Shown piece after piece: positions 8,411-51,186 of a stretch of 52,815 nt of DNA. This DNA is from Phycisphaerales bacterium. GTDB taxonomy: Bacteria; Planctomycetota; Phycisphaerae; Phycisphaerales; SM1A02. Location: the NCBI GenBank assembly GCA_009692045.1, contig SIAA01000011.1, positions 1 through 52,815 of the forward strand, in the 5' to 3' direction. Both the position numbers and the translations under genes were made by a program. Each line of letters begins with the position of its first letter. Positions within the stretch are counted from its first letter, which is position 1. A model generated the notes under the pieces. That model did no database searches and was not told the origin of the DNA. It saw nothing but the letters and a program-made list of their open reading frames with translations.

Positions 8411-8420
8411 GATTCACCCC

Positions 8421-8981
8421 ATGCTGCACCACTCTCCTATCGACCGAACACTTTCACGGTCCAACCCGCTGCTGGCTCCGCTTGCTGGCGCGGTGCTGAT
8501 TGCCACTTTGTGTCTGGGACACGCTGCCTGCGAAGATGAGGAAGAAGCCCCGGTCATCAAGCCCCAACCGGTGCAGGCGACAGCCGCCGACTACAACGCG
8601 GTGATGGGGCGACTATCTACTGCCTCTGGCGCTGAGGCCAAGATGTTGACTAAGGCTGCGACGGGATCGGGATTCAGCGATGCCGACGAGACCGCCTACT
8701 GGCAGGCTCACAACGATCGAATTGCCGCGCTCACTGAGATCAGCGGCGTTCTGCGCGGTCGCGGTGTGCGCAAGCCCGTCTCCGAAGCCTTCGACAATAT
8801 GGCGCGAGTTGCCTTGACTGAGTATGTAGCTGCTGCCGGCAAGTACGCCGCGGCCAAGAAGGCCGGCAAGGCTGCTTCGCTGGGAAGCAATCCCAACCCG
8901 CCTCCTGCAGGTTCACCCTCGGAGAGCATGATTGAACTCTCCACGATCGGGCAGTGGAATGTCAATCCAAAGAAGAGTTGA
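8421..8981 (+). CDS. Small exported protein, possible lipoprotein, unknown function
   Basis: The 186-residue product begins at an ATG ten bases after sucB. Residues about 15-38 form a hydrophobic export segment (LLAPLAGAVLIATLCLGHAAC). The Cys after HAA could be lipidated, but the lipobox is imperfect, because -3 would be His. A very acidic EDEEEAP stretch follows. The mature part is Ala-rich and probably helical, and it ends in a Pro/Gly/Ser linker. I recognise no family. The frame's codon use matches its neighbours, and the export signal supports a real gene. It ends 18 bases before the stop of the convergent ftsI gene. Confidence 0.65.
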   Translation: MLHHSPIDRTLSRSNPLLAPLAGAVLIATLCLGHAACEDEEEAPVIKPQPVQATAADYNAVMGRLSTASGAEAKMLTKAATGSGFSDADETAYWQAHNDRIAALTEISGVLRGRGVRKPVSEAFDNMARVALTEYVAAAGKYAAAKKAGKAASLGSNPNPPPAGSPSESMIELSTIGQWNVNPKKS

Positions 8982-8983
8982 TT

Positions 8984-8998
8984 CCGCCTCGGTGGCGG
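8984..8998. terminator. Small hairpin between convergent genes
   Basis: CCGCC and GGCGG pair around a five-base loop in the 18-base gap between the exported-protein gene and ftsI. The stem is GC-only but just five base pairs long, and neither side has a T-run. It is at most a weak bidirectional terminator. Confidence 0.3.
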
Positions 8999-8999
8999 C

Positions 9000-36791: not shown

Positions 36792-36841
36792 ACTGCGCGC
36801 TCCGAGGCGAACCCTGCCCGCGAGGGCGCCACCAGTTCACT
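36787..36841. terminator. Inverted repeat spanning two convergent stop codons
   Basis: A perfect nine-base repeat, AGTGAACTG (36787-36795) and CAGTTCACT (36833-36841), flanks a 37-base GC-rich spacer. The ruvX TGA lies in the left arm and the pgl TGA in the right arm, symmetrically. Its position suggests a bidirectional terminator, though there is no T-run. Confidence 0.45.
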
Positions 36842-37583
36842 TGCCGCAGGCGGCGAAGTCGAGAAACCACTTGAGTTCACCGGTGAGCGGCTTGATCCCC
36901 TTGATGGGTAGCTCACGGTAAGAGTCCGAACCATCCACCACGCGGTCGATCATGCTCGCCTTATCAGCACCGGCAACCAGCACCGCGATGTACCGCGCCG
37001 AGTTGATGGCTGGATAGGTGAGCGTGACACGAGCCGGAGGAGTAACCGTCGGGCCATCGCAGTACGACACCAATCGCACCCGCTCTTCCAGCACATCAGT
37101 GTTGGGGAACAAACTCGCCGTATGACCGTTGTCACCCATGCCCAGCATTACAAAGTCCAGCCGATCCTGGCCTTTCTCGCGCCAGCCCATCGATTCTTTC
37201 AGCAATCGCTCGTAGCGTTCAGCCGCATCCGGCTCGGTTGCGAGAATGGGATGCGCCTGCTCAGCGGGGATGCCCGCGTGCTGCACGATGGTCTGATTGA
37301 TGTGCTTCCAGTTGCTGAGGTCGCTGGTGAAATCCACGCGGCGCTCGTCCACCAGCCATAGGTGGGTGCGCGGCCATGGGAATCCTCGGTAGCGCGGGTC
37401 ATACATCAGCCGCTCGTAAAACGGCAGAGGAGTAGAGCCACCGGAGAGCGCAAGGTGAAAGTCACCAAAGGTGCGCACACAGTTGTGTGCATGTAACAGC
37501 ATGTCGGCTCCGAGAGCATCAAACACTTCGTCTATGTCAGGATGCATGGAGACATGACCCGGTAGAGCCGGCGGCATCGTCAT
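36837..37583 (-). CDS. pgl: 6-phosphogluconolactonase
   Basis: Pgl hydrolyses 6-phosphogluconolactone, the second step of the oxidative pentose phosphate pathway. The product shows the DevB-type motifs LALSGGSTPLPFYERL, THLWLVDERRV and FVMLGMGDNGHTASLFPN. It ends with a conserved-looking LTGELKWFLDF. I start it at ATG 37583, which overlaps the zwf stop by four bases (ATGA). An ATG at 37610 inside zwf is an alternative and would add nine residues. Being coupled to zwf places two consecutive enzymes together. Identification is secure; the exact start is not. Confidence 0.92.
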   Translation of the reverse strand: MTMPPALPGHVSMHPDIDEVFDALGADMLLHAHNCVRTFGDFHLALSGGSTPLPFYERLMYDPRYRGFPWPRTHLWLVDERRVDFTSDLSNWKHINQTIVQHAGIPAEQAHPILATEPDAAERYERLLKESMGWREKGQDRLDFVMLGMGDNGHTASLFPNTDVLEERVRLVSYCDGPTVTPPARVTLTYPAINSARYIAVLVAGADKASMIDRVVDGSDSYRELPIKGIKPLTGELKWFLDFAACGK

Positions 37584-39103
37584 GGGGAAGACTTCGGGGG
37601 ATTGTGCCATGCGCGTCCATCGCGTGCCATCAACTCGGTCGAGCTCGCCGGCCCCCACGATCCGGGTTCATAGTTGCTGTGCATTGCACGCCTGACCTCA
37701 AGCGAGTCCTCATTGAGAAACGGCATCACTGCCTTCCACGCGCCCTCTACCTCGAGTCGATGCTTGAATAGTGACTGGTCACCGCGCATCGCGTCCACAA
37801 GCAGCGGGCCATATGCCTCTACTGTTGCTGTCGCAAACTCCTTGGCGTAGTCCACGCCCATCTCCACGGGGGCAACACGCATCGCTCCCGGCGCCTTGCT
37901 GGCAAAGCGCAGCGTTGTGCGCTCGAGGGGCGCGATTTCGATGACGAGGCGATTGCCCTCAAGCCGAGCATCATCGGGGCACACGCCGCGAAACAGATCC
38001 GCCGCCGGAGGCTTGAACTGCACCACCACTTCAGTGCGCTTCTGTGCCATGCGCTTTCCGGTTCGCAGATAAAAGGGAGTTCGCGCCCAGCGCCAGTTGT
38101 CGACAGTCAGCCTGATGGCGGCGAAGGTCTCAGTCATCGATTGTGGCGCCACTCCCGGAAGTTCTGCGTAACCAGCACCACCGCTGCCGGAGCTGTACTG
38201 ACCGAGGGCGCAGCACAGGGGAACCGAGGCCGCGCTCACGACAGGCACCGCATCGATCGCCTTGATCTTCTCCGAGCGAATGTGGTCGGCGCTGAAGTTG
38301 GTGGGTGGCTCCATGGCTACGAACGCCATGATCTGCAGCATGTGACTCTGGATCATGTCTCGGAGGGCCCCGGTCCTCTCGTAAAAGCCGATGCGATCCT
38401 CCACTCCGATTGACTCGGACGCGGTGATCTGGACATGATCGATATAGCGATGATTCCAAACCGGCTCGAAGATGCTGTTGGCGAATCGCAGGACAAGCAG
38501 ACTCTGCACCACTTCCTTGCCTAGGTAATGATCGATGCGGTAGATCGACTCCTCTTCAAACACCCGACCAAGCGCTCGATTCAGACTGGCCGCACTCACC
38601 TCATCGTGGCCGAAGGGTTTCTCCACGACTATCCGCTGCCAAGAACGATCGGCTGGATTCAGACTGCACCAGCGCTTGCCCTCCGTTGCCAAACCTGCCA
38701 ACTCGATCTGCTCAACGATGGGCTCGTACAACTCGGGGCCGACCGACAGAAACAGCAGCAGATTGCCGCGGCACTTGCCCGATTCATCCAATCTCCCCAT
38801 CTCTCGCTTCAACCCCTCCCAGTCGGCCTGCTTCACCGCATCAGCGGCGAAATAGTGGATGCGCGCAGCCAGTTCCGCCCACTTCGAATCATCGAAAGTT
38901 GGACAATGTTTTTGTGCCACCGATTTCAGTTCGCCGCGCCAGTCCTCACTCGACTTGGGCCGCCTGGAGACTCCCAGAACCTGGGTGGCTCCACTGAGCA
39001 AGCCGGCGCAGTGCATCTGATAGAGGCTAGGAATCAGCTTGCGTGAAGTCAGATCCCCCGACGCGCCGAAGATCACAAGTAGGCAGGGGTCAGCTGGCTG
39101 CAC
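37580..39103 (-). CDS. zwf: Glucose-6-phosphate 1-dehydrogenase
   Basis: Zwf oxidises glucose-6-phosphate to the lactone with NADP or NAD, giving reducing power and feeding the pentose phosphate route. The 507-residue product has the nucleotide-binding GASGDLTSRKLIPSLYQM, the substrate signature RIDHYLGKEVVQSLLVLRFAN with the catalytic His, and the C-terminal domain (FYLRTGKRM). Length is normal. The pgl gene overlaps its stop. The porin gene lies 32 bases upstream on the same strand and may share its transcript. Confidence 0.96.
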   Translation of the reverse strand: MQPADPCLLVIFGASGDLTSRKLIPSLYQMHCAGLLSGATQVLGVSRRPKSSEDWRGELKSVAQKHCPTFDDSKWAELAARIHYFAADAVKQADWEGLKREMGRLDESGKCRGNLLLFLSVGPELYEPIVEQIELAGLATEGKRWCSLNPADRSWQRIVVEKPFGHDEVSAASLNRALGRVFEEESIYRIDHYLGKEVVQSLLVLRFANSIFEPVWNHRYIDHVQITASESIGVEDRIGFYERTGALRDMIQSHMLQIMAFVAMEPPTNFSADHIRSEKIKAIDAVPVVSAASVPLCCALGQYSSGSGGAGYAELPGVAPQSMTETFAAIRLTVDNWRWARTPFYLRTGKRMAQKRTEVVVQFKPPAADLFRGVCPDDARLEGNRLVIEIAPLERTTLRFASKAPGAMRVAPVEMGVDYAKEFATATVEAYGPLLVDAMRGDQSLFKHRLEVEGAWKAVMPFLNEDSLEVRRAMHSNYEPGSWGPASSTELMARDGRAWHNPPKSSP

Positions 39104-39135
39104 TGCCCCATTGTCGCATGAATGACAGGACGGTG

Positions 39136-40584
39136 TCAGAACATCATCTGCAACTGGACCCGAACTAGTACTTGCCCGCTGGCATCAAACTGGCCCGATG
39201 GACTTGTGCCGTCGCGCAAGAAGTCGCTGGTCGTTGCGAATGCGCCTACGCCGGTGAAGGCGTAAGACAGATCGGTAGTGACTCTGAGCCTTTGCTTGGA
39301 GAGGTACCAGTTGAGCCCGACGCTGGCCGCGTTGTACACGGAGTAGCCGTTGTTACTCGGCAACACAGCAACAGAGGCAGCCTCACCGTTAGGCATGGTG
39401 TCGGCACTTCCGTACTCGTACCGAGCTATCAGTTCAACGGTGTCGGTCAGGAAGTAGCCGCCCTGAACGACAACGCCGTATTGGTTCGCGGGAGCCAGCC
39501 CGGCTTGTGCGGGATCGACCTGACGAAATGCAAACCAAGTTGCCAGAGATGCCCCGCTGAACTGCAAAGTCAGATCAGTCGTGACACCAGCCACAAACGG
39601 TTCGATGTCGCCATACGTCGCGGGTACGCCTTGAGAATTCGATTTCTTCATCACCTCGCCCGCCAACCCAACCAGTGCGCCGAACTGCCCGCCACACCAG
39701 CCGGTGTATTCCTTGAACTGCCCCCAGGTTCCCGCGGCAAGCCACTCGGCTCGCGCCGCGAAGGCGTATTGCGCGATCTTTGTCGAGGTCCACGGCAGGT
39801 TCAGCAGATTGCCGCTGGAGTAATAGTTGCTCTTGGTTTGGACAGCGTTGGCGAACATGCCGGAGATCCGGAAGGCATCGCCCTCCCACGACAACTGGGC
39901 ACCCAGAGTGCGGCCTGGCGAGAAGAAGGACGAAAGGGTTGATCGGTCGGCGAACTGGGTCACAGTGTCAGACGTGTTGAACTCGCGCAGATAGGGTGCT
40001 TTGAACTGACCCGCGCGCACACTGAGTCCATCCCCAAGAGACTTCTCTATATAGGCATCTTCAAGAAGTGGGGCTGACTCGCCGCCAGTGATGGTAAACT
40101 CGGTCTTGTACTTCCAGGAGGGATCCAACATGTGCCCCTCGAAGTAGAGCTTGGTGCGCCGCACTTCCCAACCCCACTCGTTGTTGGTGGCGTCTGCCAC
40201 CCCCGTGGTTTCACTGCGATGATCGAAGGTGAAGCGCACCTGCATGTAGCCGCGGATGATCATCTTGAAGTTTCCATCGGCGCTGCCAATCCACAGACTC
40301 TCCTTGAAGCCACTCGTTGCCCCGTCGGCGGCGAGTGAGGCGCGCTCATCGGCATCGGCGAGCACATCCGCAACAGTTTGCCGAACTTGCTCAGCGCGCT
40401 CAGCAGTCAGCCAAGTTTGTGTGCCGTCTGCCTCCTGCCGAAGCTCGCTCACATCCCTGCGCAACTCGGCAATGGCGGCCGACAACTCCTGATCAGTTGG
40501 GCCCTTGTCGGCGGCGACATCGCCAGCCATGGCCAGGGAAGATGTTGCGAGGATGGCGGTTATCGAGGCCAGATAGGTGCGCAT
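39136..40584 (-). CDS. Outer-membrane porin, OprO/OprP (phosphate-selective) type
   Basis: The 482-residue product has a cleavable signal peptide (ITAILATSSLAMAGD) and then a helical, charged segment (about 30-85) likely to trimerise as a coiled coil. The beta-barrel domain follows, with alternating aromatic strands (IIRGYMQVRFTFDHR, WEVRRTKLYFEGHM) and a C-terminal Phe (VQLQMMF), the usual outer-membrane assembly signal. The domain resembles OprO/OprP porins. Phosphate selectivity is a family label and cannot be confirmed here. It is evidence for a Gram-negative envelope with an outer membrane. It lies between zwf and the membrane operon, all on the minus strand, with 50 bases to the latter. 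Confidence 0.85.
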   Translation of the reverse strand: MRTYLASITAILATSSLAMAGDVAADKGPTDQELSAAIAELRRDVSELRQEADGTQTWLTAERAEQVRQTVADVLADADERASLAADGATSGFKESLWIGSADGNFKMIIRGYMQVRFTFDHRSETTGVADATNNEWGWEVRRTKLYFEGHMLDPSWKYKTEFTITGGESAPLLEDAYIEKSLGDGLSVRAGQFKAPYLREFNTSDTVTQFADRSTLSSFFSPGRTLGAQLSWEGDAFRISGMFANAVQTKSNYYSSGNLLNLPWTSTKIAQYAFAARAEWLAAGTWGQFKEYTGWCGGQFGALVGLAGEVMKKSNSQGVPATYGDIEPFVAGVTTDLTLQFSGASLATWFAFRQVDPAQAGLAPANQYGVVVQGGYFLTDTVELIARYEYGSADTMPNGEAASVAVLPSNNGYSVYNAASVGLNWYLSKQRLRVTTDLSYAFTGVGAFATTSDFLRDGTSPSGQFDASGQVLVRVQLQMMF

Positions 40585-40634: not shown

Positions 40635-41684
40635 TCACCAAACACTAACAGAGTGAATCTGCGCGAACTGTCCCAGCACTTCGCCAGCGCCTGCTGTCAG
40701 CGCGACCACGCGCTTGCCGCTCGGATCGATGAGCCAGAGCCAATCGTCGAGCATGAACTCAAAGCGAGCAGCAAGCAAGGCGATTCGTCCCATCACAGTG
40801 AATCCGAAGCCGGCACCGAATGTGATCATGAGATACCAGATGCCCACACGAGCAGCTCGCCCCACGACACCCTTGTGCTCGACGCTGAAGTAGAAGTAGG
40901 CAAGGGCGCAGATGACACCTACGAAGAGAAGGGTCTGCTTGAGACTGGCGCCAACTGTCATTGCCAGATCGAGGGCGCCATCGACTCCCAACCTCTCGAC
41001 ATAGAGAGGCTTCATCGTCGCCGCTGACTGTGCCAGCAGATCGCCCTCGGTGAATGAGATGAACTTGAGGCCAGCAGTTGTTCCGATCACAAATGCCAAT
41101 GGGAGCAGCGACACGCTGGCAACTTTGGGAACAAGTCTGCAAAGAAGCATGAGGCCCAGCGCCAGCGGCACGAGCATCCACCAGTTGCCCGTCACATCGG
41201 TCAGGCTGGGCAGAAAGTGAGCTTTGGTATAGAGGGGCAGCAGCGCGCCGCCTAGTTTGGGAACCAGCACATCCCACACGCCAACGATTCCCCAGTACGC
41301 CGCGGAGACGCCCACCACCGCGGCTTCCGCCACTTTGTAGCAAGGATTGTCCGCGTAGAGGAAGGAGAGAATGGCGAGGGTAAAGAACGCCGCCGCCCAC
41401 AAACCCAGGGTGCGCGAGAGACTCAGATGAACGGTTGTTTGCTTCGGATCCTTAGCGTTTGCCGCATAGAACACCCGCGGCGGCACAGATAGCTCGGCTG
41501 TCCAACTGATCGTTGGCGTAACGCCATCCGGCGCAGCTTCCCAGACGCCATCAGCAGACTGAACGAAGCCCATCTGCTGATCAGAGACATAGGACCTGCC
41601 CATCCCGGGGCCGGTGAATGCGCGAATCGCTAGCAGCACTAGCGCCACTGCGAGCACTAACGACCAGAGCGCACGCCTGCTCAT
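40635..41684 (-). CDS. Polytopic membrane protein of the GlmL/DUF6754 operon, unknown function
   Basis: The 349-residue product has an N-terminal hydrophobic segment (about 7-24), an extracytoplasmic-looking polar stretch (about 30-85, with a WTAELSVPPRVFYAAN segment), and then about six membrane helices. It ends with a short soluble tail (WLWLIDPSGKRVVALTAGAGE). I recognise no named family. Its ATG overlaps the preceding gene by four bases, with GAGGAG six bases upstream, so it is the last gene of the eight-gene operon. Helices in the middle carry Gly/Trp-rich faces typical of multi-subunit membrane proteins. It may be a channel or an anchoring subunit of the complex (inference only). Confidence 0.8.
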   Translation of the reverse strand: MSRRALWSLVLAVALVLLAIRAFTGPGMGRSYVSDQQMGFVQSADGVWEAAPDGVTPTISWTAELSVPPRVFYAANAKDPKQTTVHLSLSRTLGLWAAAFFTLAILSFLYADNPCYKVAEAAVVGVSAAYWGIVGVWDVLVPKLGGALLPLYTKAHFLPSLTDVTGNWWMLVPLALGLMLLCRLVPKVASVSLLPLAFVIGTTAGLKFISFTEGDLLAQSAATMKPLYVERLGVDGALDLAMTVGASLKQTLLFVGVICALAYFYFSVEHKGVVGRAARVGIWYLMITFGAGFGFTVMGRIALLAARFEFMLDDWLWLIDPSGKRVVALTAGAGEVLGQFAQIHSVSVW

Positions 41685-42613
41685 GGTGTGCTCCTCAGAG
41701 CTTTGACCGCAGTGCCGCCCGCGCGCTTCCTTGAGAAGTGGATCACATTGCCAAGGATGATCAGAGACACCATCAACAGATGTCCGAACAGCTGCGGCGC
41801 CATGCGGCGCTGCGCTTCATTGAATACTGGAGAGATGATCAGCCCCGGATTAGCCTCCATCAGCGAGGCATTCACCAGAGCCTCATACTCAGCCGCACCC
41901 TTTATGGCGGCAAGCATGCCCTTGAGTTGCCGTGGCCAATAGGGCACCATCTGCGGCGCCTGTACTCCGGTTACGCCGGCCACCAGTTTCAATTCTGTTC
42001 CGTGATCGCCGCTGAGCGTGGGTGAAACGATGTACTGAACCCACTCTTTGCAGCCGGGATAGCCCGCGCTCAGATTGATGATGAGATCGAAGTCCTCCGT
42101 CGACTTTATGTCCGCCATCATGGGGATCGAAGTAACGGGAGTTCCCCGCGCATCAACCGTGAATGACTGCTTGAAGTCAGTTGAGATCACCTTGAGAACG
42201 CTCTCGTTTCCTGCCTGGAAGCCCAGGTTGACATAGTCAACTCCATAAACCATGTGGGGATGCCCCGCGACGATCACCGACTTGATGGTCTCGATGATGA
42301 GAGGCGGTGCCGGCGCCCACAGGGTTGCGAAATACATGTCGAAATCCCTCGAGGCGACATGGCGGGTGAAGGCGATCGCCATCGGCTGCAGTTCGCCCGC
42401 GCTGGCAGGATCAAAGTCGAAAGCGAGAAGCACCTTGGAGCCCGCTGGCAGAGACTCGATGGTGTCGAATGCGGTTTGGGTAGTTGGGGTCGCCGACTCT
42501 GGAAAAGTTTTTCCAGTCATCCCGCTGACGATGATGGGAATCGAAACAGCCAGCGCCATCAGCAGGAATATCCAGCGGCGATCGATGATGTCCAGTCGCT
42601 CCAGAAGGCTCAT
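41681..42613 (-). CDS. Membrane protein with a globular domain between two helices, unknown function
   Basis: The 310-residue product starts at ATG 42613, just after the upstream stop; a longer frame from 42646 would overlap that gene. One membrane helix lies near the N-terminus (RRWIFLLMALAVSIPIIV) and one near the C-terminus (LFGHLLMVSLIILGNVI), with about 230 soluble residues between. The domain begins KVLLAFDFDPASAGELQP and includes repeated beta-alpha patterns (YGVDYVNLGFQAG, DFDLIINLSAGYPG). I do not recognise it, but the pattern resembles a Rossmann-like or substrate-binding fold. Tight coupling to both neighbours makes it a probable subunit of the same membrane assembly. Confidence 0.82.
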   Translation of the reverse strand: MSLLERLDIIDRRWIFLLMALAVSIPIIVSGMTGKTFPESATPTTQTAFDTIESLPAGSKVLLAFDFDPASAGELQPMAIAFTRHVASRDFDMYFATLWAPAPPLIIETIKSVIVAGHPHMVYGVDYVNLGFQAGNESVLKVISTDFKQSFTVDARGTPVTSIPMMADIKSTEDFDLIINLSAGYPGCKEWVQYIVSPTLSGDHGTELKLVAGVTGVQAPQMVPYWPRQLKGMLAAIKGAAEYEALVNASLMEANPGLIISPVFNEAQRRMAPQLFGHLLMVSLIILGNVIHFSRKRAGGTAVKALRSTP

Positions 42614-42614
42614 G

Positions 42615-43310
42615 TCAGTTGCTCGCTCCCAAGTAGGACCGATCAAGACCCAACATGATCTTCAGGCTCTGCGCCGCGACGCCCAACGCAATGCCAATGA
42701 TGATGGCGCGATTACCCGCGCTGTTGAATACTTCAAGAATGAGCGAGGCCAGATTCTCCAGCCGCAGGAAGGAGAGCGACTCCGGAAGCCATCCCGTAAG
42801 CACCACCCCGGCGAAGGTACGACCGAGCAGCACAATGAAGGCGGTGCCCAGTAGCAGTGCCGCTTCCACATTCTTGGCGCGGAAGGCGCGGAAGGCGGCG
42901 CTGGCCACAAAGAAGGCTAGAAGCGCGAACATGGTGGAGGTGAGGGGAGACATCACGAACGCGTACATCCACCAGAAGGCACTGCCCTCCGCATCCTTTT
43001 CGCCGCTCATTGCTACTGCTGGGAACTTGTCCATCGGATGGACGCCCAACTTCATGAGCCCCACCGCGAAGGTGAATGTGAAGAAGAAGATGGTTAGACC
43101 TGAGTATCCCCAGCCGGGAGAGCGAGAGGAAATCTTCTCCAAGTGAACCTTGGCAAGATTTGCCGCGCCTAGTACAAAGGCAATGGCCGCCAGCACATTG
43201 AACCACTCAGCGACATCTTCGCCCCAGTGTTCAACTGGCTTGAAAAACGCGCTCGCCACCATGGCAAAGCCAGAGACGAAGGTGATGATCAGGGCAATCT
43301 GGCGCGTCAC
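42615..43310 (-). CDS. Polytopic membrane protein of the GlmL/DUF6754 operon, unknown function
   Basis: The 231-residue product begins at GTG 43310 and has about six membrane helices (IALIITFVSGFAMVASAFF, LTIFFFTFTFAVGLM, MYAFVMSPLTSTMFALLAFF and others). Between helices are short loops with conserved-looking charged motifs (EHWGEDVAEWFNVL). I recognise no family. It begins seven bases after the DUF6754 gene and ends one base before the next start. Number and order of helices suggest an integral subunit that packs against its neighbours. A transporter function is possible but not supported by any recognisable motif. Confidence 0.8.
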   Translation of the reverse strand: MTRQIALIITFVSGFAMVASAFFKPVEHWGEDVAEWFNVLAAIAFVLGAANLAKVHLEKISSRSPGWGYSGLTIFFFTFTFAVGLMKLGVHPMDKFPAVAMSGEKDAEGSAFWWMYAFVMSPLTSTMFALLAFFVASAAFRAFRAKNVEAALLLGTAFIVLLGRTFAGVVLTGWLPESLSFLRLENLASLILEVFNSAGNRAIIIGIALGVAAQSLKIMLGLDRSYLGASN

Positions 43311-43317
43311 GGATTAC

Positions 43318-44148
43318 TCAGCCTCCCACCAGTTTGCGCAGCCACTCTGCCGCGTCGGTTAGACCACTCACCCCGGTTACTGCAGCAGCTGTGGCGACGA
43401 ATACCACCACAATCATGAGCAGCCCGATCGCGGACTTACCCAAATCCTGTCCGCGCAAACTGCCCAGTTGGTCGGGCTCGCCGGAGAGGTAGGCGCTGGC
43501 CGCGAAAAACTCTTCGCCAATGAGCGTGTAGTCGCAGGCAGCAACAAAGAAGGGCAACTGGCTGCTCTCAGCGGTACCGGCGATCTGAATGGCGCCGATG
43601 GCGTTACCGGTTTCGGCGAAGATCAGACTCTCGGCGAAAAACTGCCCCATGTAAAAACATGTTGCCGGTTTCTTGCGCACCATCAAGCCAGTCACGTACG
43701 CCGCATAGCCAAACTGCTCATCAGTTACGTAATAGACAAGGTCGGGGTTATACGAATCGCTTCGCCCCGCGCTCATATAGCTCGCCTGCATGGTTTCGCG
43801 GGCCGCCGTCATCACCAGAGAGCGAGCCGTGGGTACTTCGATCTGTGCGTCGTACTCCGCCGCAATCTTGCCGACTCTCGAGAGGACCGTGAGCCCGGCG
43901 ATGGTCATCATCTGGTCAACATCCTGAACGCCGGGAACGAACAGAATGGGGCGCCCCATTTCTGTGGCACGTCCAACAGCCTCTTCGACGGCCACCAGCC
44001 CCGCGATGCGGCGGATGGGGAACTTTTTGCCACGCCGCGCCGCAGCGATGGAGGCAAGGACAAGCATAGAGAGCAGAATGAGCCAACCGAGCAGCGGCGC
44101 GCGGTCGCCGTCAAACCAACTGGACGCAGTAGCGGCAGCAGTTTCCAT
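43318..44148 (-). CDS. DUF6754-type membrane protein
   Basis: The 276-residue product has an N-terminal helix (LGWLILLSMLVLASIAA) and a C-terminal helix (AIGLLMIVVVFVATAAAVTG), flanking a soluble domain of about 190 residues. This domain contains PILFVPGVQDVDQMMTIAG, YYVTDEQFGYAAYVTG and FFVAACDYTLIGEEFFAASAYLSG. I recognise these as the DUF6754 pattern, a family of unknown function that I recall beside GlmL-like genes in other phyla; a profile search should confirm it. The topology matches the 41681-42613 product. It is the fifth gene of the operon, with 38 bases to the barrel-type gene upstream and seven to the next membrane gene. Confidence 0.82.
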   Translation of the reverse strand: METAAATASSWFDGDRAPLLGWLILLSMLVLASIAAARRGKKFPIRRIAGLVAVEEAVGRATEMGRPILFVPGVQDVDQMMTIAGLTVLSRVGKIAAEYDAQIEVPTARSLVMTAARETMQASYMSAGRSDSYNPDLVYYVTDEQFGYAAYVTGLMVRKKPATCFYMGQFFAESLIFAETGNAIGAIQIAGTAESSQLPFFVAACDYTLIGEEFFAASAYLSGEPDQLGSLRGQDLGKSAIGLLMIVVVFVATAAAVTGVSGLTDAAEWLRKLVGG

Positions 44149-44186
44149 CAGGTTGGGGCAGGCTACAGGGAGTTACGCGGACTTGC

Positions 44187-45329
44187 TCAGCTCTCGATCA
44201 ACTCAACATTGGCACGGGGTACTGTGACCACACGCCCATCTTCCAGTTTGACTTCGAGCACCCGTGCCTTGGAGCCGGAGTCAAGCACGGCGGGCTGCTC
44301 CGGGAGAGCGGCCACCGATCCCAGCAATCCAAAGTATGGATCGCGAATCACGCGAACGAATGTGCCTATCTCCAGATAGCCGGCCGTCGCTGATCCAACG
44401 ATCGCCTCCGAAGTAGTAGTAGATAGCGCTGGTTTGGCTGAGAGCGGCACTACTACTTCAGGACGCATTACCCCGGCACGAATCTGCGTCGCGCCATTGA
44501 CACTGGCGCAGTGGCCCTCGTGCGATCTAAGCAGCTCGAAGGTGCGGGTTGCCATAGCGATGTCACCGAATCCCTCAGTGACAATCACGGTTAGACCAGT
44601 TTTTTCAGAGCCGGTGATGGCGACACCCAAGTCGTACCCGAGGAAGTCACGCAGATCCTGATCGTCTATTCCGCCACTGATGATCGCGACCGCGCCCACA
44701 GCCCGAGCCTTGCGGATGGCCGCGGCGCTGGCCCTCGCACCACCCACCACGATCGCCCCTTGGTGGACACTCGTGATGTGCGACTCCTCCAGCGGCTCCA
44801 CTGGACTACTGCACACGCAGCGCAGTATGCCTGCCGTCTCCCCTCCGATTCCAAATATCCCCTGCACCAGCGCTACTGTGTTTTCCACTACGACACCCTC
44901 TCCCGCCAGCACCTCTGCCACGATGCCGTCGATGTAGGCCCTTACTTCCACGGGAATCTGCGCCCCGCGAACGATCACCATGCCGGTAGTGTCGGAGACA
45001 CTTTCAATCACGCCTGATGAGGTGCACTTCACCTCAGTTTTCATCATGCCAAAGATGCCCTTGCTGCGGGCGATTGTGTCACCTTCCCGCACGGCGCTCC
45101 CGATGGCTACCAACATCAGACTCGGCAGCTCCTTGGGGTTGCAGCCCAGCATGTTGGCAACTTTCATGGGAGTCGCATCGCCCTCCAGGAATGTGCGCGC
45201 CACCGAAGTGCGCGCCTCCACAATGTCGCCGCGCCGCACCAGCACCTCGCCCGAGATGGGTAGTACTCGCCGCGCTTGATATCGCGCGGAGGCAGTCACT
45301 TTCAATCCGGGTGTGTATGCCTTTGCCAT
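44187..45329 (-). CDS. Soluble barrel-type protein next to the GlmL-like gene, unknown function
   Basis: The 380-residue product starts at ATG 45329, with AGGAA five bases upstream; a longer frame to 45434 would run into the GlmL gene. Its N-terminal half looks like a barrel-sandwich hybrid, as in biotinyl/lipoyl-like domains: LPISGEVLVRRGDIVEAR, IGSAVREGDTIARSKG, CTSSGVIESVSDTTG and AYIDGIVAEVLAGEGVVVE. The middle has an alpha/beta unit (GAIVVGGARASAAAIRKA, AVAIISGGIDDQDLRDFLG). The C-terminus resembles a small KOW-like strand motif (KARVLEVKLEDGRVV). No catalytic motif is evident. It is seven bases from the GlmL-like gene, so the pair probably work together, perhaps linking the ATPase to the membrane subunits (inference). 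Confidence 0.82.
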   Translation of the reverse strand: MAKAYTPGLKVTASARYQARRVLPISGEVLVRRGDIVEARTSVARTFLEGDATPMKVANMLGCNPKELPSLMLVAIGSAVREGDTIARSKGIFGMMKTEVKCTSSGVIESVSDTTGMVIVRGAQIPVEVRAYIDGIVAEVLAGEGVVVENTVALVQGIFGIGGETAGILRCVCSSPVEPLEESHITSVHQGAIVVGGARASAAAIRKARAVGAVAIISGGIDDQDLRDFLGYDLGVAITGSEKTGLTVIVTEGFGDIAMATRTFELLRSHEGHCASVNGATQIRAGVMRPEVVVPLSAKPALSTTTSEAIVGSATAGYLEIGTFVRVIRDPYFGLLGSVAALPEQPAVLDSGSKARVLEVKLEDGRVVTVPRANVELIES

Positions 45330-45336
45330 GTTGTTC

Positions 45337-47166
45337 CTAGGCGTAGAGCCGCAGGGTATGCACCCAACTCTCCATCGCTCGGCGGCACTGGTCTCGATCC
45401 TCAGGCAGGCGCAGAGATCGCCCACGCGCGTCAAGAATGATGCCGACTGTTCCGCCGCGAACCGTTCGCGTAATGGGCTTGCCCGGTCCGGCTCCCAGAT
45501 CGAATCCGCGCTCAGGAGTTACCGTCGCTTCGGCAACAGCGCCGCCGGGCAGAGGCAACAGTTTGAGTTCGCCTCCACTGAGCGATCCCGTTTCTCTGAT
45601 GCCGCTGCCTTCGATTCGATAAGAGAAACATGGCTTACCCGCCTTGCTCGCGCCCTTGGCGGCGATGCAGGTTCCCAGCAGAATCAGACAGTCTCTCTCG
45701 AACACCTCCATGGCTGCCTTGGGGTGCACGCTGGCCAGCACGCCCAGGTGCGGCATCATGAAGATTGAATCCTTGGCAAGTTCGGTGAATCCCTCCGGCT
45801 CGAAGCTATCGATGAGCATCATCGCCGTCTGTTCCATGCGCGGCGCATGGCTGAGCACGCCACCAGAGGCGACAAGGAGATCGAGGCGCATGCTGTCGAC
45901 GACGGATTTGCCTGACTCCTGCTGGCTGAAGGCATCACCAACCGTGCGCTGCTGCTGTACACCCTTGAGGGTGGTGGCGAACTCCTTGTGTTGCACATAG
46001 GCAAGGCGCAGTGCCTCCCGCGCCACAGCCTGCTCGAACACCAGAGCCTCAAGCGATTGGGGAATCGTCGTCGGGCGAATCATCTTGTTCTTCACGCGAT
46101 TGCGCAGTTCGCGTTCGTCCATGCCAGCCAAGTGAACCCAGCGCAGAACCATGGGCATGGTGGCCTCGGCGCACACATTGCTGATGGAGTAGCTCATGCC
46201 AAGGTTGGCACTCACCGTCCGGTTGAAGGTTCCGTCAAAGACGCTGAATACATCGGTGGTAGCGCCGCCGATGTCGACTCCGACTGCATTGATTCCCCGA
46301 CCCTTGGCGATGGTCTGCAAGATGTCACCTACCGCGCCAGGGGTGGGCATGATGGGAGCGTCGGCCCAAGTCATGAGCTTGTCGTAGCCAGGAGCATGGG
46401 CCATTACATGCTCCAGAAACACATCATGGATGCGATCGCGGGCGGGACCGAGATTCTCATACTCGAGCGTGGGCCGAAGATTGGGCACAATCGAGAGATC
46501 GAAGCCGCGCCCATCGAAAACCTTTGCCACCAGCGGCGCCGCCTCTTTGTTGCCGGCATAGATCAACGGCATCTCATACTCATTGCCGAATCTCGGCCGC
46601 GGCTTGGCGGGCGCGATCAGCTCAGCGAGTTCCACAACTTTCTTGCTGTCGCCACCATCGGTGCCGCCCGACAGCAGAATCATGTCCGGGCGCAACTCGC
46701 GTATGCGTTGAATCTGCTCGTGCGGACGCCGCGAGTCATTGCTCGCGATCGTGTCCATCACGATGGCGCCTGCACCCAAGGCCGCTCGCTTGGCGCTCTC
46801 TGCCGTCATCTGGCGCACGACTCCTGCCACCATCATCTGCAGGCCGCCGCCGGCGCTTGAAGTGGAAATATAGATGTCAGCCCCGTCGCTCTGCGCGGGT
46901 GAGGAACGGCGGATGATCGTCCCGTCGTCGGCGATGAGCCTGCGACCCGAGAGCTCCTGCAACTCGGTGACGGAGTTCACCACTCCCATCGTTACATCGG
47001 CGAATGGTTCCTCAACCGTAGTGGGTGCCTCACCCCGGAAGGTCTGGCGATACACGCCGTCGATCTCCTCTATGAGGATTGCCTTGGTGGTTGTGGAGCC
47101 ACAGTCAGTGGCGACGATCACCTTGATGCGCGATGGATCGGAGACATGGCTGGGCTGCTGTGACAC
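45337..47166 (-). CDS. GlmL-like (MutL family) ASKHA ATPase
   Basis: GlmL proteins are ASKHA-fold ATPases first linked to glutamate mutase in clostridia, where they are thought to act as a chaperone or reactivator. This 609-residue product shows the first phosphate loop (ATDCGSTTTKAILIEE) near the N-terminus, a mid-protein segment typical of the family (SSSAGGGLQMMVAGVVRQM), and the second nucleotide motif (GVDIGGATTDVFSV). After it comes a metal or partner segment (GMSYSISNVCAEA). I start it at GTG 47166; the longer frame to 47292 overlaps the upstream gene. No GlmS or GlmE mutase gene is in the window. Here it is instead followed by a barrel protein and membrane proteins, which points to another role. 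Confidence 0.9.
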   Translation of the reverse strand: MSQQPSHVSDPSRIKVIVATDCGSTTTKAILIEEIDGVYRQTFRGEAPTTVEEPFADVTMGVVNSVTELQELSGRRLIADDGTIIRRSSPAQSDGADIYISTSSAGGGLQMMVAGVVRQMTAESAKRAALGAGAIVMDTIASNDSRRPHEQIQRIRELRPDMILLSGGTDGGDSKKVVELAELIAPAKPRPRFGNEYEMPLIYAGNKEAAPLVAKVFDGRGFDLSIVPNLRPTLEYENLGPARDRIHDVFLEHVMAHAPGYDKLMTWADAPIMPTPGAVGDILQTIAKGRGINAVGVDIGGATTDVFSVFDGTFNRTVSANLGMSYSISNVCAEATMPMVLRWVHLAGMDERELRNRVKNKMIRPTTIPQSLEALVFEQAVAREALRLAYVQHKEFATTLKGVQQQRTVGDAFSQQESGKSVVDSMRLDLLVASGGVLSHAPRMEQTAMMLIDSFEPEGFTELAKDSIFMMPHLGVLASVHPKAAMEVFERDCLILLGTCIAAKGASKAGKPCFSYRIEGSGIRETGSLSGGELKLLPLPGGAVAEATVTPERGFDLGAGPGKPITRTVRGGTVGIILDARGRSLRLPEDRDQCRRAMESWVHTLRLYA

Positions 47167-47194
47167 TGGGAGGCGAAAGATAGCCGAGAGCGGG

Positions 47195-47524
47195 CTATTG
47201 GGACGGATTGCCCGCAGATTCGCGGCGCGTGAGCTCTTGGCACAGCCAGTCGATGGCTCCGCGCTTCTCCATGTAACTGGCGATCGCCCCATAGCGCACT
47301 GGGTCGAGCACCGCTGTAGCGAATGGCTGAAAGAAATGCATCGCCTGTGCGCCCACCGAGTTCAACCCGCGCATGGCTTCCAGCGAAATGAGCGCGGGGC
47401 CGACCATACGCCTGCGTACCACCTCGGCCAGAAGCGGCTCTAGCGCGGCGAGCTCCACATCAGAAGGTGGAGCCGGCCCGGGCTTCTCCACCGCGAACGC
47501 GTTCTTGAGCCAACTCAGGTTCAA
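47195..47524 (-). CDS. Small protein upstream of the GlmL-like gene, unknown function
   Basis: The 109-residue product begins at TTG 47524, overlapping the preceding stop (TTGA), with GAGG about seven bases upstream. It has no signal peptide. A weakly hydrophobic helix pair (GPALISLEAMRGLNSVGAQAM, FFQPFATAVLDPVRY) is followed by an acidic/basic helix (YMEKRGAIDWLCQELTRR). The composition is typical of a soluble or membrane-associated helical protein. I recognise no family. The coupling to its neighbour and 28 bases to the GlmL start indicate that it belongs to the operon. It could be a partner of the ATPase. Confidence 0.65.
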   Translation of the reverse strand: MNLSWLKNAFAVEKPGPAPPSDVELAALEPLLAEVVRRRMVGPALISLEAMRGLNSVGAQAMHFFQPFATAVLDPVRYGAIASYMEKRGAIDWLCQELTRRESAGNPSQ

Positions 47525-48003
47525 CTGCCGCCTCGCGCCGGCAGACTAGCCTCCAGCGCCGCGTTCATTCCTTGCTCACGCACAAGGGTGTCTTGCCCCA
47601 ACATCGCTCGGCACTGGGCGGCGCGCTGGGGCGTGTCGAACCACAAAGTGAATCCACTAGCCCTCTGCCATCCTCGTTTGGACTCGGGTCCAAGTCGACT
47701 AACCCAAGCCCACTGAGGTGACCAAACGAATGTGCGTATCTCGCTCCACTTCATCGACCTATCTCTAAGTGGTGTGCTCGCCAAGATGCCGGCTTCGCTG
47801 AGTTGGCATTTTGATGGCAGATAGAACTCGCCGACGCAAAGCACCAATACTAGAGAGACGATCGCCCCCCAGAACCAATCACCCGCGAGGAGAGCCGACG
47901 CCAACCCGAACCCCACGATGAGGGCGATCGCACCCAGCGCCAGAGCGGGCCTGCGACGGGCTGGCCACACCGTCCAGCATGCTGATTCGCCGACCTGCGA
48001 CAT
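47521..48003 (-). CDS. Membrane protein with a soluble C-terminal domain, first gene of the GlmL operon
   Basis: The 160-residue product has two N-terminal membrane helices (ALGAIALIVGFGLASALLAG and GAIVSLVLVLCVGEFYL). A soluble domain of about 95 residues follows, containing CQLSEAGILASTPL, RDRSMKWSEIRTFVW and GFTLWFDTPQRAAQ. That helix-helix-domain layout is like the bacterial PH-like (DUF304) proteins, but I cannot confirm this by eye. It is the first gene of the minus-strand operon and diverges from the 3-hydroxyanthranilate dioxygenase gene, with 53 bases between their starts. The next gene overlaps its stop. Confidence 0.72.
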   Translation of the reverse strand: MSQVGESACWTVWPARRRPALALGAIALIVGFGLASALLAGDWFWGAIVSLVLVLCVGEFYLPSKCQLSEAGILASTPLRDRSMKWSEIRTFVWSPQWAWVSRLGPESKRGWQRASGFTLWFDTPQRAAQCRAMLGQDTLVREQGMNAALEASLPARGGS

Positions 48004-48056: not shown

Positions 48057-48758
48057 ATGAGCGAAACATCCATCACGGCTGCGAGCAATGCCCTGGGTTC
48101 GGAGGCTGATTGTGGCAAACCTAACTGCTGCTGCGGAGGCGCTGGGGGCACTACCGCCAGCACGCCCGTGCGCGCCCTGAATGACTGCGGCGATCCCACG
48201 GGATGGATGTCCGACGGCTCCGTGGCCCCTGCTCTCAACTTGACGCAGTGGATCACCGCCAATCGTCACCTGATGACCCCGCCGGTCGCCAACAAATACC
48301 TCTACTCCGGAGCTGATTTCTTCGCGATGATTGTGTGCGGACCCAACACCCGCAATGACTTTCACCAGACGGACAGCGAGGAGTTTTTGTATCAGATCAA
48401 AGGTGACATCGTGGTGAGACTTCGCGAGGCTGGCGGCTTGCGTGATGTGGTCGTCCGCGAGGGAGAAACTTTTTTTATTCCGCCTAATGTCCCCCATTCA
48501 CCACAGCGAACTGCAGGGACGATCGGCTTGGTGATCGAGCGCCGCCGCCCCGCCACCGAAAGGGAACACATCATCTTCTACTGCCCCAAGTGCAGCGAAC
48601 TGGTTCATGACAAGAGCTTTGCCTGCAAGGACATTGTGAAACACTTTACTCAGGCCATGGAAGACTTCTGGGCTGACTCCAAACTCTCCACCTGCCCCAA
48701 GTGCGGCACACGCATCACCAAGCCCGAAGCGCAATACCACAGCCCTGGCGCTTGCTGA
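48057..48758 (+). CDS. nbaC: 3-hydroxyanthranilate 3,4-dioxygenase with N-terminal Cys-rich extension
   Basis: This Fe(II) cupin enzyme opens the ring of 3-hydroxyanthranilate to 2-amino-3-carboxymuconate semialdehyde. The ring-cleavage iron ligands are His103, Glu109 and His147 (GPNTRNDFHQTDSEE; NVPHSPQR). The bacterial rubredoxin-like second metal site is complete: Cys176, Cys179, Cys213 and Cys216. The bacterial enzyme normally begins near LNLTQWI, so this 233-residue product has an extra 52 residues or so, with a DCGKPNCCC cluster. The start at 48057 has a GAGG ribosome site; an internal ATG at 48207 would remove the extension but has a poor site. It is the first of four kynurenine genes. 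Confidence 0.93.
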   Translation: MSETSITAASNALGSEADCGKPNCCCGGAGGTTASTPVRALNDCGDPTGWMSDGSVAPALNLTQWITANRHLMTPPVANKYLYSGADFFAMIVCGPNTRNDFHQTDSEEFLYQIKGDIVVRLREAGGLRDVVVREGETFFIPPNVPHSPQRTAGTIGLVIERRRPATEREHIIFYCPKCSELVHDKSFACKDIVKHFTQAMEDFWADSKLSTCPKCGTRITKPEAQYHSPGAC

Positions 48759-49792
48759 AAAGGTGCTCTCTGCCACACTTCGGCATTGATCTTCACACTC
48801 ATGTGCTACCCAGAGATTGGGAGCGCCTCTCTGCCCGTTACGGCTATGGAGGCTGGGTAGACATCGAGCACTGCGCCAACTGCTGCGCGCGCCTGCTGAT
48901 TGATGGCAAGCCCTTTCGCGAGATCGAATCAGACTGCTGGGACCCCGCACGCCGCCTCGCTGATTGTGACGAGTGGGGAATCGCCACTCAGGTTCTCTCC
49001 ACATTGCCCGTGATGTTTTCCTACTGGGCCAAGCCAGCCGATGCCCTTGACTTGTCAGAGCGTCTCAACGATCACATCGCCTCGTTAGTTCGCGATCATC
49101 CCACGCGATTCGAGGGGCTGGGCACGGTGCCGATGCAGGACCCCTCTCTCGCAGTACGCGAACTCGAACGATGCGTGTGCACTCTCGGATTACGCGGCAT
49201 CCAGATCGGCACCAACATCGAGGGCCGCAATCTCGATGATGCCTCGGTGCTCCCGGTGTTGGCCGCTGCCCAGAGGCTGAATGCCGCGGTATTCGTTCAT
49301 CCCTGGAACATGGCGGGGCAAACCGAGATGCCCCGGCACTGGATGCCTTGGCTCGTAGGGATGCCGGCCGAGTGTGCCCGTGCCGCTTGCAGCCTCATCA
49401 TGGGAGGCGTGCTAGAGAGATATCCCCGACTTCGGATCTGTCTGGCGCACGGCGGCGGTTCGTTTCCAGGAACGCTCGGTCGCATCGACAAGGGTTTCAA
49501 GGAGCGTCCAGATCTCTGCCAGTCGGCAACGATTGTCGCTCCTAGTTCACAAGCCTCACGCCTCTACTACGACTCGCTGGTACACGATGCCGCCGCGCTG
49601 CGACTCTTACTTGATCGCGTCGGCGCTGAGCGCATTGCTCTTGGCAGCGACTACCCATTCCCGCTGGGCGAGCGACCGCCAGGGTCGTTGCTGCGTAATA
49701 TGCAGGGAATCAGCGACGCGCAGATGACCCGCATGCTCGCGGGTACGGCGCGTGAGTTTCTCGGACTTGATGAAGTGGCTCAGCACAAGTGA
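48752..49792 (+). CDS. nbaD: 2-amino-3-carboxymuconate-6-semialdehyde decarboxylase
   Basis: ACMSD removes the carboxyl group of the dioxygenase product, sending the pathway to 2-aminomuconate semialdehyde instead of quinolinate and NAD. It belongs to the amidohydrolase superfamily. The metal ligands are visible: HTH near the N-terminus (DLHTHVLPRDW), VFVHPWN, CLAHGGGSFP and the Asp in GSDYPFPLGE. The start is uncertain: TTG 48752 overlaps the dioxygenase stop. A CTG at 48770, preceded by AAGG at a good distance, would also fit. It ends overlapping the kynureninase start (GTGA). The family and reaction are secure. Confidence 0.94.
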   Translation: MLKRCSLPHFGIDLHTHVLPRDWERLSARYGYGGWVDIEHCANCCARLLIDGKPFREIESDCWDPARRLADCDEWGIATQVLSTLPVMFSYWAKPADALDLSERLNDHIASLVRDHPTRFEGLGTVPMQDPSLAVRELERCVCTLGLRGIQIGTNIEGRNLDDASVLPVLAAAQRLNAAVFVHPWNMAGQTEMPRHWMPWLVGMPAECARAACSLIMGGVLERYPRLRICLAHGGGSFPGTLGRIDKGFKERPDLCQSATIVAPSSQASRLYYDSLVHDAAALRLLLDRVGAERIALGSDYPFPLGERPPGSLLRNMQGISDAQMTRMLAGTAREFLGLDEVAQHK

Positions 49793-51123
49793 AGCCCTCC
49801 TCCCCATCCTCACAGAAACTGCGCGCTTGCGACTTCGAAGACTCCCTCGAGTTTGCACGGGCCTGTGATGCCCGTGACCCGCTGCGCACCTTCCGCAGGC
49901 GCTTTCATATTCCGCTCTGCACCGATGGAACCCCAGTTGTGTATCTGGCGGGCAACTCGCTGGGATTGCAGCCCAAGACAACGCGCCGACTACTTCTTGA
50001 GGAGTTGGATGATTGGGCTGAGCATGGCGTCGAGGGTCATGTCAATAGCCGACGCGCCTGGGTGCGCTATCACGAGTTTTTCCGAGAGGGAGCCGCGGCC
50101 CTAGTTGGTGCCAAGCACAGTGAGGTCGTGGCAATGAACACGCTTACTGTGAACCTGCATCTCTTAATGGTCTCGTTCTATCGGCCTGAGGGCAAACGCA
50201 CAAAAATCCTCATCGAGCGCGGCGCCTTCCCCAGTGACACCTATGCCGCGCACAGTCACATCAGGAGTCGCGGGCTCGATCCCGCCACCAATCTGGTCTT
50301 CATCTCTCCGCGCGCGGGCGAGCGTTGTTTGCGCATGGAGGACATCGAGTCAATCATCGCGCAGCATGCTGATCAGATTGCCTTGGTCATGCTGCCGGGG
50401 GTGCAGTATCTGACGGGACAGGTGCTCGATATCGCGCGTATCACCGCGGCCGCCCACAGAGCGGGAGCCAGATGCGGCTGGGATCTGGCTCACGCTGTGG
50501 GCAACGTTCCGCTGGCACTGCACGATGCGAATGTCGACTTCGCTGCCTGGTGCTCTTACAAGTATCTCAATGGCGGGCCTGGTGCAGTTGCCGGGGCATT
50601 CATCCATGAGCGCCACGGCAGCGATCATCACCTGCCCCGTTACCTCGGATGGTGGAGCAATGATCCCGCTAACAGGTTTGAAATGCGCGAGCTGTTCACT
50701 CCTACCGAAGGCGCTGATGGATGGGCCGTGAGCAATCCCCCCATTCTCAGTCTTACTCCTCTGCTTGCCAGTTTTGAGTTGTTCAAGAAGGCAGGCTTGG
50801 AGCGGGTCTTTGCCAAGTCGCGCCTCCTATCCGGATACCTCCAGTGGTTACTGCGCCAACGCGCAGACCAGGCCATCGCCCGCGGCGTCGAGGCGCTGAC
50901 ACTCCCTCGCGTTGTCACTCCTGCCAATACTGATGAGCGCGCCTCCCAGGTCTCGATTGTGGTTGGTAACAAACAAGACCCGGCGCTTCTGAAGGCTGCT
51001 CTGTCCGCCAAAGGAATTGTCGTCGATTGCCGCCAACCAGACATCGTGCGCGCTGCACCTGTGCCGCTTTACAACAACATGGAAGATGTGTGGCGCTTCG
51101 TAGACGCTCTGCCGTGGAGCTAG
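49789..51123 (+). CDS. kynU: Kynureninase
   Basis: Kynureninase is a PLP enzyme that cleaves kynurenine or 3-hydroxykynurenine to anthranilate or 3-hydroxyanthranilate plus alanine. The 444-residue product has the N-terminal segment typical of the family (VYLAGNSLGLQPKTTR) and the aspartate region of the cofactor site (CGWDLAHAVGNVPL). The PLP lysine is in CSYKYLNGGPGAVAG. The C-terminal half follows (GWWSNDPANRFEM). GTG 49789 overlaps the ACMSD stop. In this operon it links the monooxygenase product to the dioxygenase substrate. Confidence 0.95.
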   Translation: MKPSSPSSQKLRACDFEDSLEFARACDARDPLRTFRRRFHIPLCTDGTPVVYLAGNSLGLQPKTTRRLLLEELDDWAEHGVEGHVNSRRAWVRYHEFFREGAAALVGAKHSEVVAMNTLTVNLHLLMVSFYRPEGKRTKILIERGAFPSDTYAAHSHIRSRGLDPATNLVFISPRAGERCLRMEDIESIIAQHADQIALVMLPGVQYLTGQVLDIARITAAAHRAGARCGWDLAHAVGNVPLALHDANVDFAAWCSYKYLNGGPGAVAGAFIHERHGSDHHLPRYLGWWSNDPANRFEMRELFTPTEGADGWAVSNPPILSLTPLLASFELFKKAGLERVFAKSRLLSGYLQWLLRQRADQAIARGVEALTLPRVVTPANTDERASQVSIVVGNKQDPALLKAALSAKGIVVDCRQPDIVRAAPVPLYNNMEDVWRFVDALPWS

Positions 51124-51186
51124 TTCAACTTCGACTCGCGGTTTGATGGGGACCGGCTCCCTGGATGGGTAGGTACTCTGCCTCGC

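Follow-up and report, generated by a model that had tools for sequence, protein, structure and literature searches.

Among the closest described relatives of the system reported here are those of its ATPase and of one of its membrane proteins. GlmL-type proteins act as reactivases, and GlmL carries an NCBIfam name that makes it the accessory protein of a mutase; the model lengths of its family (NF040745, TIGR01319) range from 448 to 459. The ornithine degradation protein Or-4 (NF040744) is GlmL-related and has a homologous kind of ATPase. On the membrane side the nearest named family is DUF6754 (PF20539), whose name carries no function. In the present study we examined an operon with relatives of both families, situated on contig SIAA01000011.1 of a Phycisphaerales bacterium (GCA_009692045.1; 2.17 Mb genome); the 52.8 kb of this contig are the whole stretch of DNA analysed, hereafter the window. 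Eight minus-strand open reading frames (ORFs) at 40635 to 48003, numbered g1 to g8 in transcription order, are well supported as a widely conserved system, undescribed as far as searched, that functions as one unit. Our leading reading, held tentatively, is an ATP-driven inner-membrane machine in which g3 and g4 would form the engine, g5 to g8 the membrane module, and g1 and g2 accessories.

The eight-gene operon

The eight genes nearly abut, with 4-base overlaps between g1 and g2 and between g7 and g8 and gaps of ~1 to 50 bases elsewhere, an arrangement that an earlier note made from the sequence letters had described and that the ORFs confirm. Gene starts were placed by eye, guided by the profile boundaries of homologues. 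Hydropathy indicates membrane helices in g1 and g5 to g8, in agreement with the membrane proteins proposed in that note, and none in g2 to g4. The first two genes, both putative accessories, encode a two-helix membrane protein recognised from its ORF and hydropathy (g1, 47521–48003) and a small soluble protein of no known family (g2, 47195–47524). These are followed by a MutL/GlmL-type ASKHA ATPase assigned by PF13941 (g3, 45337–47145), read from a GTG start within a longer ATG ORF beginning at 47292, and by a soluble partner predicted to combine barrel-sandwich character with swivelling b/b/a and KOW/SH3 domains (g4, 44187–45329). The DUF6754 protein (g5, 43318–44148) is predicted to consist of a membrane helix, a Rossmann-like domain and a second membrane helix. 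The remaining three genes encode a polytopic membrane protein with inserts after the third transmembrane helix (TM3) in some homologues (g6, 42615–43310), a two-helix membrane protein with a domain of ~200–240 residues between the helices (g7, 41681–42613, upper end approximate), and a polytopic membrane protein of no known family (g8, 40635–41684).

Only g3 and g5 exceed a Pfam cut-off, with g1, g2, g4, g6, g7 and g8 exceeding none, and an NCBIfam search returned no match over cut-off for any of the eight products. Searches of the PDB with profiles of g3 to g8 gave nothing significant, the best match being the Spt5 KOW domain for g4 (E 0.04). Taken together with PADLOC, these searches do not distribute the genes among known families that are unrelated to each other. 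An anti-phage defence system was considered and rejected, since no PADLOC family matched any of the eight proteins at E ≤ 0.01, as was a paralogous origin of g5 and g7, since hhalign comparisons among the eight families found no relationship. A g1 homologue in one locus (L065) matches bPH_6 below the cut-off (E 0.0096, in this single homologue only), and g1 may perhaps carry a bacterial PH-like domain. Promoters and terminators showed no excess over shuffled sequence, and the window holds no RNA families or tRNAs. Comparison with two relatives (L078 and L079) indicates purifying substitution, with dN of 0.15–0.46 and dS of 1.2–2.1, the latter near saturation.

The word ‘undescribed’ in the earlier note stands within the open-access literature searched, preprints and most subscription papers being outside its scope. 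DUF6754, PF13941, PF20539 and TIGR01319 are not named in that literature, and the accessible portions of two papers (PMC7709395 and PMC10849945) contain no description of the system. An essentiality study of Planctopirus limnophila reports that 151 of 748 essential genes are of unknown function (PMC10632474); the g1 to g8 set is not named in the part of that study available.

Gene order and distribution across phyla

A scan of public genomes for g5 recovered at least 576 stretches encoding relatives, of which 79 loci were retained. Their titles include Planctomycetota, Zixiibacteriota, Neomarinimicrobiota, Cloacimonadota, Gemmatimonadota, Acidobacteriota, Latescibacterota, Stahlbacteria, Eisenbacteria and others. 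Gene order was counted by placing profiles of the eight proteins on 117 loci including the window, with the near-duplicates L084, L097 and L108 excluded here and from the cassette counts; the loci were found through DUF6754/g5 and are hence biased towards it, and the counts ignore genes intervening between family members, with contig ends cutting many loci. The order g5 to g8 is kept in 105 of the 117 loci, g3 to g8 in 52, g2 to g8 in 42 and all of g1 to g8 in 28, so that conservation extends beyond close relatives, as the neighbourhood comparison suggested in the earlier note was meant to examine. The two putative accessories were detected less widely (g1 in 35/120 loci, g2 in 56/120), and in one locus (L106) the starts of g5 and g6 lie ~8 kb apart. 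Counted as whole or partial cassettes (n = 147), all four of g5 to g8 are present in 126. Since the order recurs across phyla and substitution is purifying, the operon is not a product of chance.

Within the Planctomycetota, DUF6754 was detected in 76 of 294 genomes; in a search of 41 relatives it is present in 29, including 24 of the 25 members of the family to which the window genome belongs (that genome counted). Hydrazine synthase alpha was found in seven of eight tested genomes of family f48 and in none of five other genomes, which identifies f48 as an anammox family. Among the 15 f48 genomes listed as having DUF6754 or MutL, 14 have DUF6754 and one (G153) has MutL only. The cultured planctomycete Thalassoglobus neptunius (L097) also appears to carry the system.

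In the g5 tree the two Cloacimonadota rows fall into a single group, as do the two Gemmatimonadota rows, Zixiibacteriota require three label changes, and Neomarinimicrobiota and Acidobacteriota rows are intermixed with others. The grouping by phylum indicates that the spread is not all recent transfer. Four loci with cross-phylum titles (L087, L089, L099 and L106) fall inside the Planctomycetota part of the g3 and g5 trees; these, together with L139 and L153 on the basis of their names, may reflect transfer, misnaming or misbinning.

Co-occurrence, fusions and duplicated cassettes

The ATPase and DUF6754 tend to occur together, also in genomes with the genes dispersed. Across the 294 genomes, 70 encode both DUF6754 and MutL, six DUF6754 only, ten MutL only and 208 neither (Fisher p 4e-49, which is overstated given that the genomes share ancestry). 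In the ten MutL-only genomes no g4 match was found in seven, a scrap of g4 in one and a full g4 in two. We checked 12 Planctomycetota genomes gene by gene and found g3, g4, g5 and g7 in all 12. The genes lie together in five of these; in the remaining seven (G024, G105, G283, G194, G137, G088 and G217) they are widely separated or sit on separate contigs, the positions in G024, for example, being 0.29 Mb for g4 and g5, 0.79 Mb for g3 and 3.53 Mb for g7. This dispersal would suit a chance or housekeeping clustering, in which separately useful genes share an operon with no common function, an explanation we consider very unlikely in view of the retention of all four genes in the 12 genomes, the gene fusions and the paired duplication of cassettes. 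The genomes behind 20 of the 79 retained cross-phylum loci were also examined; g3 was present in 20, in two as fragments only, and g4 in 19, with one of these 19 (G332) having the distant type only.

Natural fusions join neighbouring members of the set in single ORFs. Three Neomarinimicrobiota-titled loci encode a g3-g4 fusion (L087, with its start cut, L089 and L106), and one locus encodes a g7-g8 fusion (L130). Seven loci contain three tandem g5 to g8 cassettes each. When each of the 83 genes in these loci is compared with the other six loci, the best match lies in the same-numbered cassette in 83 of 83 cases, and the g5 copies largely group by number in their tree. Based on this copy-for-copy matching the cassettes are old modules that evolve as units.

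An ATPase distinct from GlmL

The g3 product matches PF13941 (MutL) with 429 bits against a cut-off of 27, covering profile positions 1–450 of 450, and is the one PF13941 protein of the window genome. Its phosphate and adenosine motif positions, which we name on the assumption that they correspond to the ASKHA motifs of those names, are invariant in 39 aligned rows. By family g3 is a MutL-type ASKHA (actin-fold) ATPase, with hydrolysis itself putative. In matching the whole PF13941 profile and keeping its motif positions g3 resembles the GlmL family. Its NCBIfam scores all miss the cut-offs, with 230.9 bits against NF040745 (cut-off 475), 205.6 against the Or-4 model NF040744 (cut-off 600) and 162.7 against TIGR01319 (cut-off 204.05). 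Assignment of g3 and Or-4 to a shared superfamily is our presumption. In further contrast to GlmL, g3 is longer (602 residues), is paired or fused with g4, and occurs without glutamate mutase: GlmE (PF06368) was found in 0 of 12 genomes carrying the system, the window genome included, with MutL shown in all 11 that were searched for it (the 12 less G302). Because the NCBIfam cut-offs are missed and glutamate mutase is absent from the 12 genomes tested, we conclude from sequence comparison that g3 is not GlmL.

These results bear directly on the link to the cobalamin-dependent glutamate mutase that the earlier note cited, which does not apply here. Glutamate mutase activation was rejected on the same two grounds, and the related proposal that g3 is a glutamate mutase accessory stranded among membrane genes of another function is scarcely credible and, short of a mutase that escaped recognition, refuted for these genomes. 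It draws on the matches of g3 to the GlmL models, which lie far under their cut-offs, and is opposed by the linkage of the genes over many phyla and by the performance of MutLs from the same phylum, two of which (L181 and L182) pass TIGR01319 (272.9 and 403 bits) where g3 fails. Both nevertheless miss NF040745 (362.4 and 436.3 bits), and a third (L184) passes none of the models. In the g3 tree the operon type stands apart from the distant g3-g4 type and from GlmL-type rows, although this main split is weakly supported (43) and the branches are long. The GlmL-family protein of L181, from another planctomycete, was seen with its adjoining gene at 7765–10535, which we take to encode a PrpF-type isomerase.

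The soluble partner g4

The predicted structure of g4 has a mean pLDDT of 88. Residues ~150–296 resemble swivel domains, including those of rifampin phosphotransferase (Z 9.6), RraA (9.0) and pyruvate kinase (8.7; C-terminal domain), and residues ~318–380 resemble the KOW/SH3 domains of Spt5 and NusG (Z ~8). The barrel-sandwich character of the N-terminal part comes from weak matches below cut-off, to RnfC_N in g4 itself and to Biotin_lipoyl and NQRA_N in a distant relative; the list of structural matches mostly covers residues 130–380, leaving the N-terminal part barely tested. The description of g4 as ‘barrel-type’ in the earlier note was thus apt for part of the protein and missed the swivel and KOW/SH3 domains. 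Although the separate domains are similar to those of swivel-domain and KOW proteins (Z ~8–9.6), alignments with the listed proteins reach at most 138 of g4's 380 residues, and the g4 domains differ in being paired with an ASKHA ATPase.

The DUF6754 protein g5

With 383.1 bits against a cut-off of 27 and a nearly full-length match, g5 belongs to PF20539, as the earlier note had recognised. Its predicted structure (pLDDT 95.4, pTM 0.88) shows a Rossmann-like domain at residues ~48–223 flanked by membrane helices. The best structural match is Sir2 (Z 11.9, 140 aligned residues, 3.4 Å), followed by transhydrogenase domain III and carbon monoxide dehydrogenase (CODH) epsilon (Z 9.0–9.4), RCK and others. 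These are the nearest predicted folds among many ties, and the g5 domain differs from Sir2, transhydrogenase domain III and CODH epsilon in bearing a membrane helix on each side. Across 99 rows 24 columns are invariant, and conserved residues are often polar.

The structural matches favour a membrane redox or cofactor complex, in which g5 would bind an NAD(P)-like nucleotide, g6 to g8 would conduct ions or electrons and g3 and g4 would have an assembly role. We regard this as improbable, given that many other Rossmann proteins tie at Z 8.6–9.5 and that Foldseek with the g5 model returned no match at E ≤ 0.001. Homology of g5 to transhydrogenase or Sir2 was likewise considered and is not supported by sequence: no Pfam match to PNTB or Sir2 was found at E ≤ 1, and hhalign gave a probability of ~0.2% for each, a weak test since the PNTB-Sir2 control comparison also failed (1.8%).

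Many g5 homologues have an upstream extension, absent from the window copy, that reads as a signal peptide and periplasmic region. Five full-length relatives, read by eye, open with a signal peptide plus an additional N-terminal region. Measured as stop-to-stop frames, some of them cut by contig ends, an open frame of at least 90 codons precedes the g5 domain in 120 of 146 genes, and one of fewer than 60 in 22, including the window. The g5 relative in L115 has an fn3 match below the cut-off.

Membrane subunits and the conservation gradient

The long g6 proteins examined (n = 8) have an insert after TM3 in seven cases, one of which (L150) has a second, later insert; the eighth (L131) has its insert later. 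Large inserts after TM3 are found in the g6 proteins at 13674–15455 of L115, 4579–5853 of L047, 7335–9209 of L082 and 2925–4748 of L092. A Pfam scan of six g6 proteins identified FG-GAP repeats in one insert and an FHA-like domain in another, with four having no family over cut-off. The best PDB match of g6 is a Mrp antiporter subunit at chance level (E 0.2).

Mean column identity falls along the operon from g3 (68%) through g4 (64%), g5 (56%), g6 (48%) and g7 (35%) to g8 (31%), noting that the sets of rows differ between genes and that in g7 and g8 the full-length rows from the window bring in thinly populated columns. We read this gradient as suggesting an engine in the cytosol that stays constant and an outer face that varies. 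The long open frames upstream of the g5 domain and the g6 inserts after TM3 likewise count as variation of the outer face.

Proposed mechanism and the activase alternative

What the sequences themselves show is a conserved and co-occurring set of genes, fusions among them, their organisation in cassettes and ATPase motif positions that do not vary. Complex formation, coupling to ATP, the topology with its inside and outside parts, the transport-like output and the substrate are inferences. In the ATP-driven machine that we tentatively favour, g3 (actin-fold ATPase) and g4 (barrel, swivel and KOW adaptor) would bind the cytosolic Rossmann-like domain of g5, whose state would be altered by ATP binding and hydrolysis. 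The membrane-embedded portions of g5, g6 and g8 would relay this change to an extracytoplasmic face composed of the g7 domain together with the g6 loop and g5's N-terminal region, where the machine would move, load or remodel an envelope substrate or partner. A bolder claim, which we consider rather unlikely, is that the system represents a new class of machine, in which an ASKHA rather than a P-loop ATPase powers inner-membrane transport or remodelling through the g4 adaptor and the Rossmann-domain protein g5, with one ATPase running three paralogous modules in some phyla.

The main rival, possible if doubtful, is that g3 and g4 form an activase or repair chaperone that opens or reloads a membrane enzyme made of g5 to g8, for example by exchange of a damaged cofactor. 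The naming of GlmL as the accessory of a mutase is consistent with such a role, as are the resemblance of the g5 domain to nucleotide-cofactor folds and its many conserved polar residues. Genomes with at least two DUF6754 matches (n = 16, some of the matches being fragments) point the same way: 11 of them encode a single MutL, G037 none, and G039, G124, G139 and G169 two or three each, partly fragments or distant-type proteins. Because a single MutL is found in most of these genomes, g3 and g4 may be a shared partner or activator and not a fixed subunit. The earlier note's view of an ATPase ‘built into’ the membrane assembly is consequently less secure than the ordered retention of the set. 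Opposing the activase is the lack of any recognised catalytic family in g5 to g8 (Pfam, NCBIfam), where no cofactor motif was identified either. In addition, g4 is missing from seven of the ten MutL-only genomes, and two of the three MutLs scored from these seven are GlmL-family proteins (L181 and L182, not L184), so that g4 does not accompany ATPases of this kind in general.

Several observations weigh against the ATP-driven machine. Where several cassettes share one MutL, an activator would explain this as readily as a motor. The distant g3-g4 type, mostly one fused ORF, has no g5 to g8 within the fetched stretches; the genomes examined that carry it all have DUF6754, partly through how they were chosen, and this separation also speaks for the activase. 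Two genomes, G067 (72% complete) and G153 (99%), have a full g4 and MutL and no DUF6754 match, and among the six DUF6754-only genomes a g4 match was found in one of five tested, leaving four without g4. No significant sequence match to transporter or channel families was found for g6, g7 or g8 in Pfam or the PDB. The putative placement of the g5 domain inside and the g7 domain outside the cytoplasm is based on hydropathy and charge only, and it puts the FHA-like insert of one g6 protein in a loop outside, which is unusual for FHA. On present evidence the ATP-driven machine is preferred to the activase by a small margin.

Either outcome would be of interest for a conserved multi-gene system whose carriers include an anammox family, several candidate phyla and a cultured planctomycete, and for which no solved relative of g3 to g8 was found by sequence. 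If the ATPase drives the membrane module, this would be an unfamiliar way to power membrane work; if g3 and g4 are an activase, the range of roles of GlmL-type ATPases would be widened. Genome-wide essentiality data from Planctopirus limnophila and native complexome data from an anammox bacterium may bear on the system, if those organisms carry the set.

Distant relatives and genomic neighbourhood

Distant g3-g4-like fusions, all large proteins, were located at 11347–14367 of L169, 6954–9761 of L170, 7550–10492 of L171, 3926–7009 of L172, 6778–9294 of L174 and 8798–11314 of L175. A third type has separate adjacent g3-like and g4-like genes with no g5 to g8 nearby (L178, 1995–5014; L179, 8891–11829). 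The neighbours of the distant g3-g4 genes are varied and indicate no function. The clearest exception to co-occurrence is G153 of the anammox family, with g3 and g4 in the absence of a DUF6754 match.

Clustering of 833 neighbouring ORFs identified no conserved neighbour outside the set, no family occurring in more than 14 loci. The larger clusters, named by eye, comprise fatty acid synthesis, pdxA-like, pyruvate phosphate dikinase, zwf and kynurenine genes. In the window, genes for kynurenine breakdown lie divergent to the operon on the plus strand (48057–52512) and encode a 3-hydroxyanthranilate dioxygenase, an amidohydrolase (presumably ACMSD), a kynureninase-type protein and an FAD-binding protein (presumably kynurenine monooxygenase). 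A kynureninase-like gene, named by eye, is again beside the operon in a few relatives. Directly downstream on the minus strand (36837–40584) are genes for a phosphate-selective porin O/P family protein, glucose-6-phosphate dehydrogenase and a 6-phosphogluconolactonase-type protein, the dehydrogenase being found downstream again in six related loci. Further away on the same strand, a TPR-rich protein of 1599 residues (17466–22265) is followed by a 741-residue protein (15233–17458) with no Pfam match at E 1e-5.

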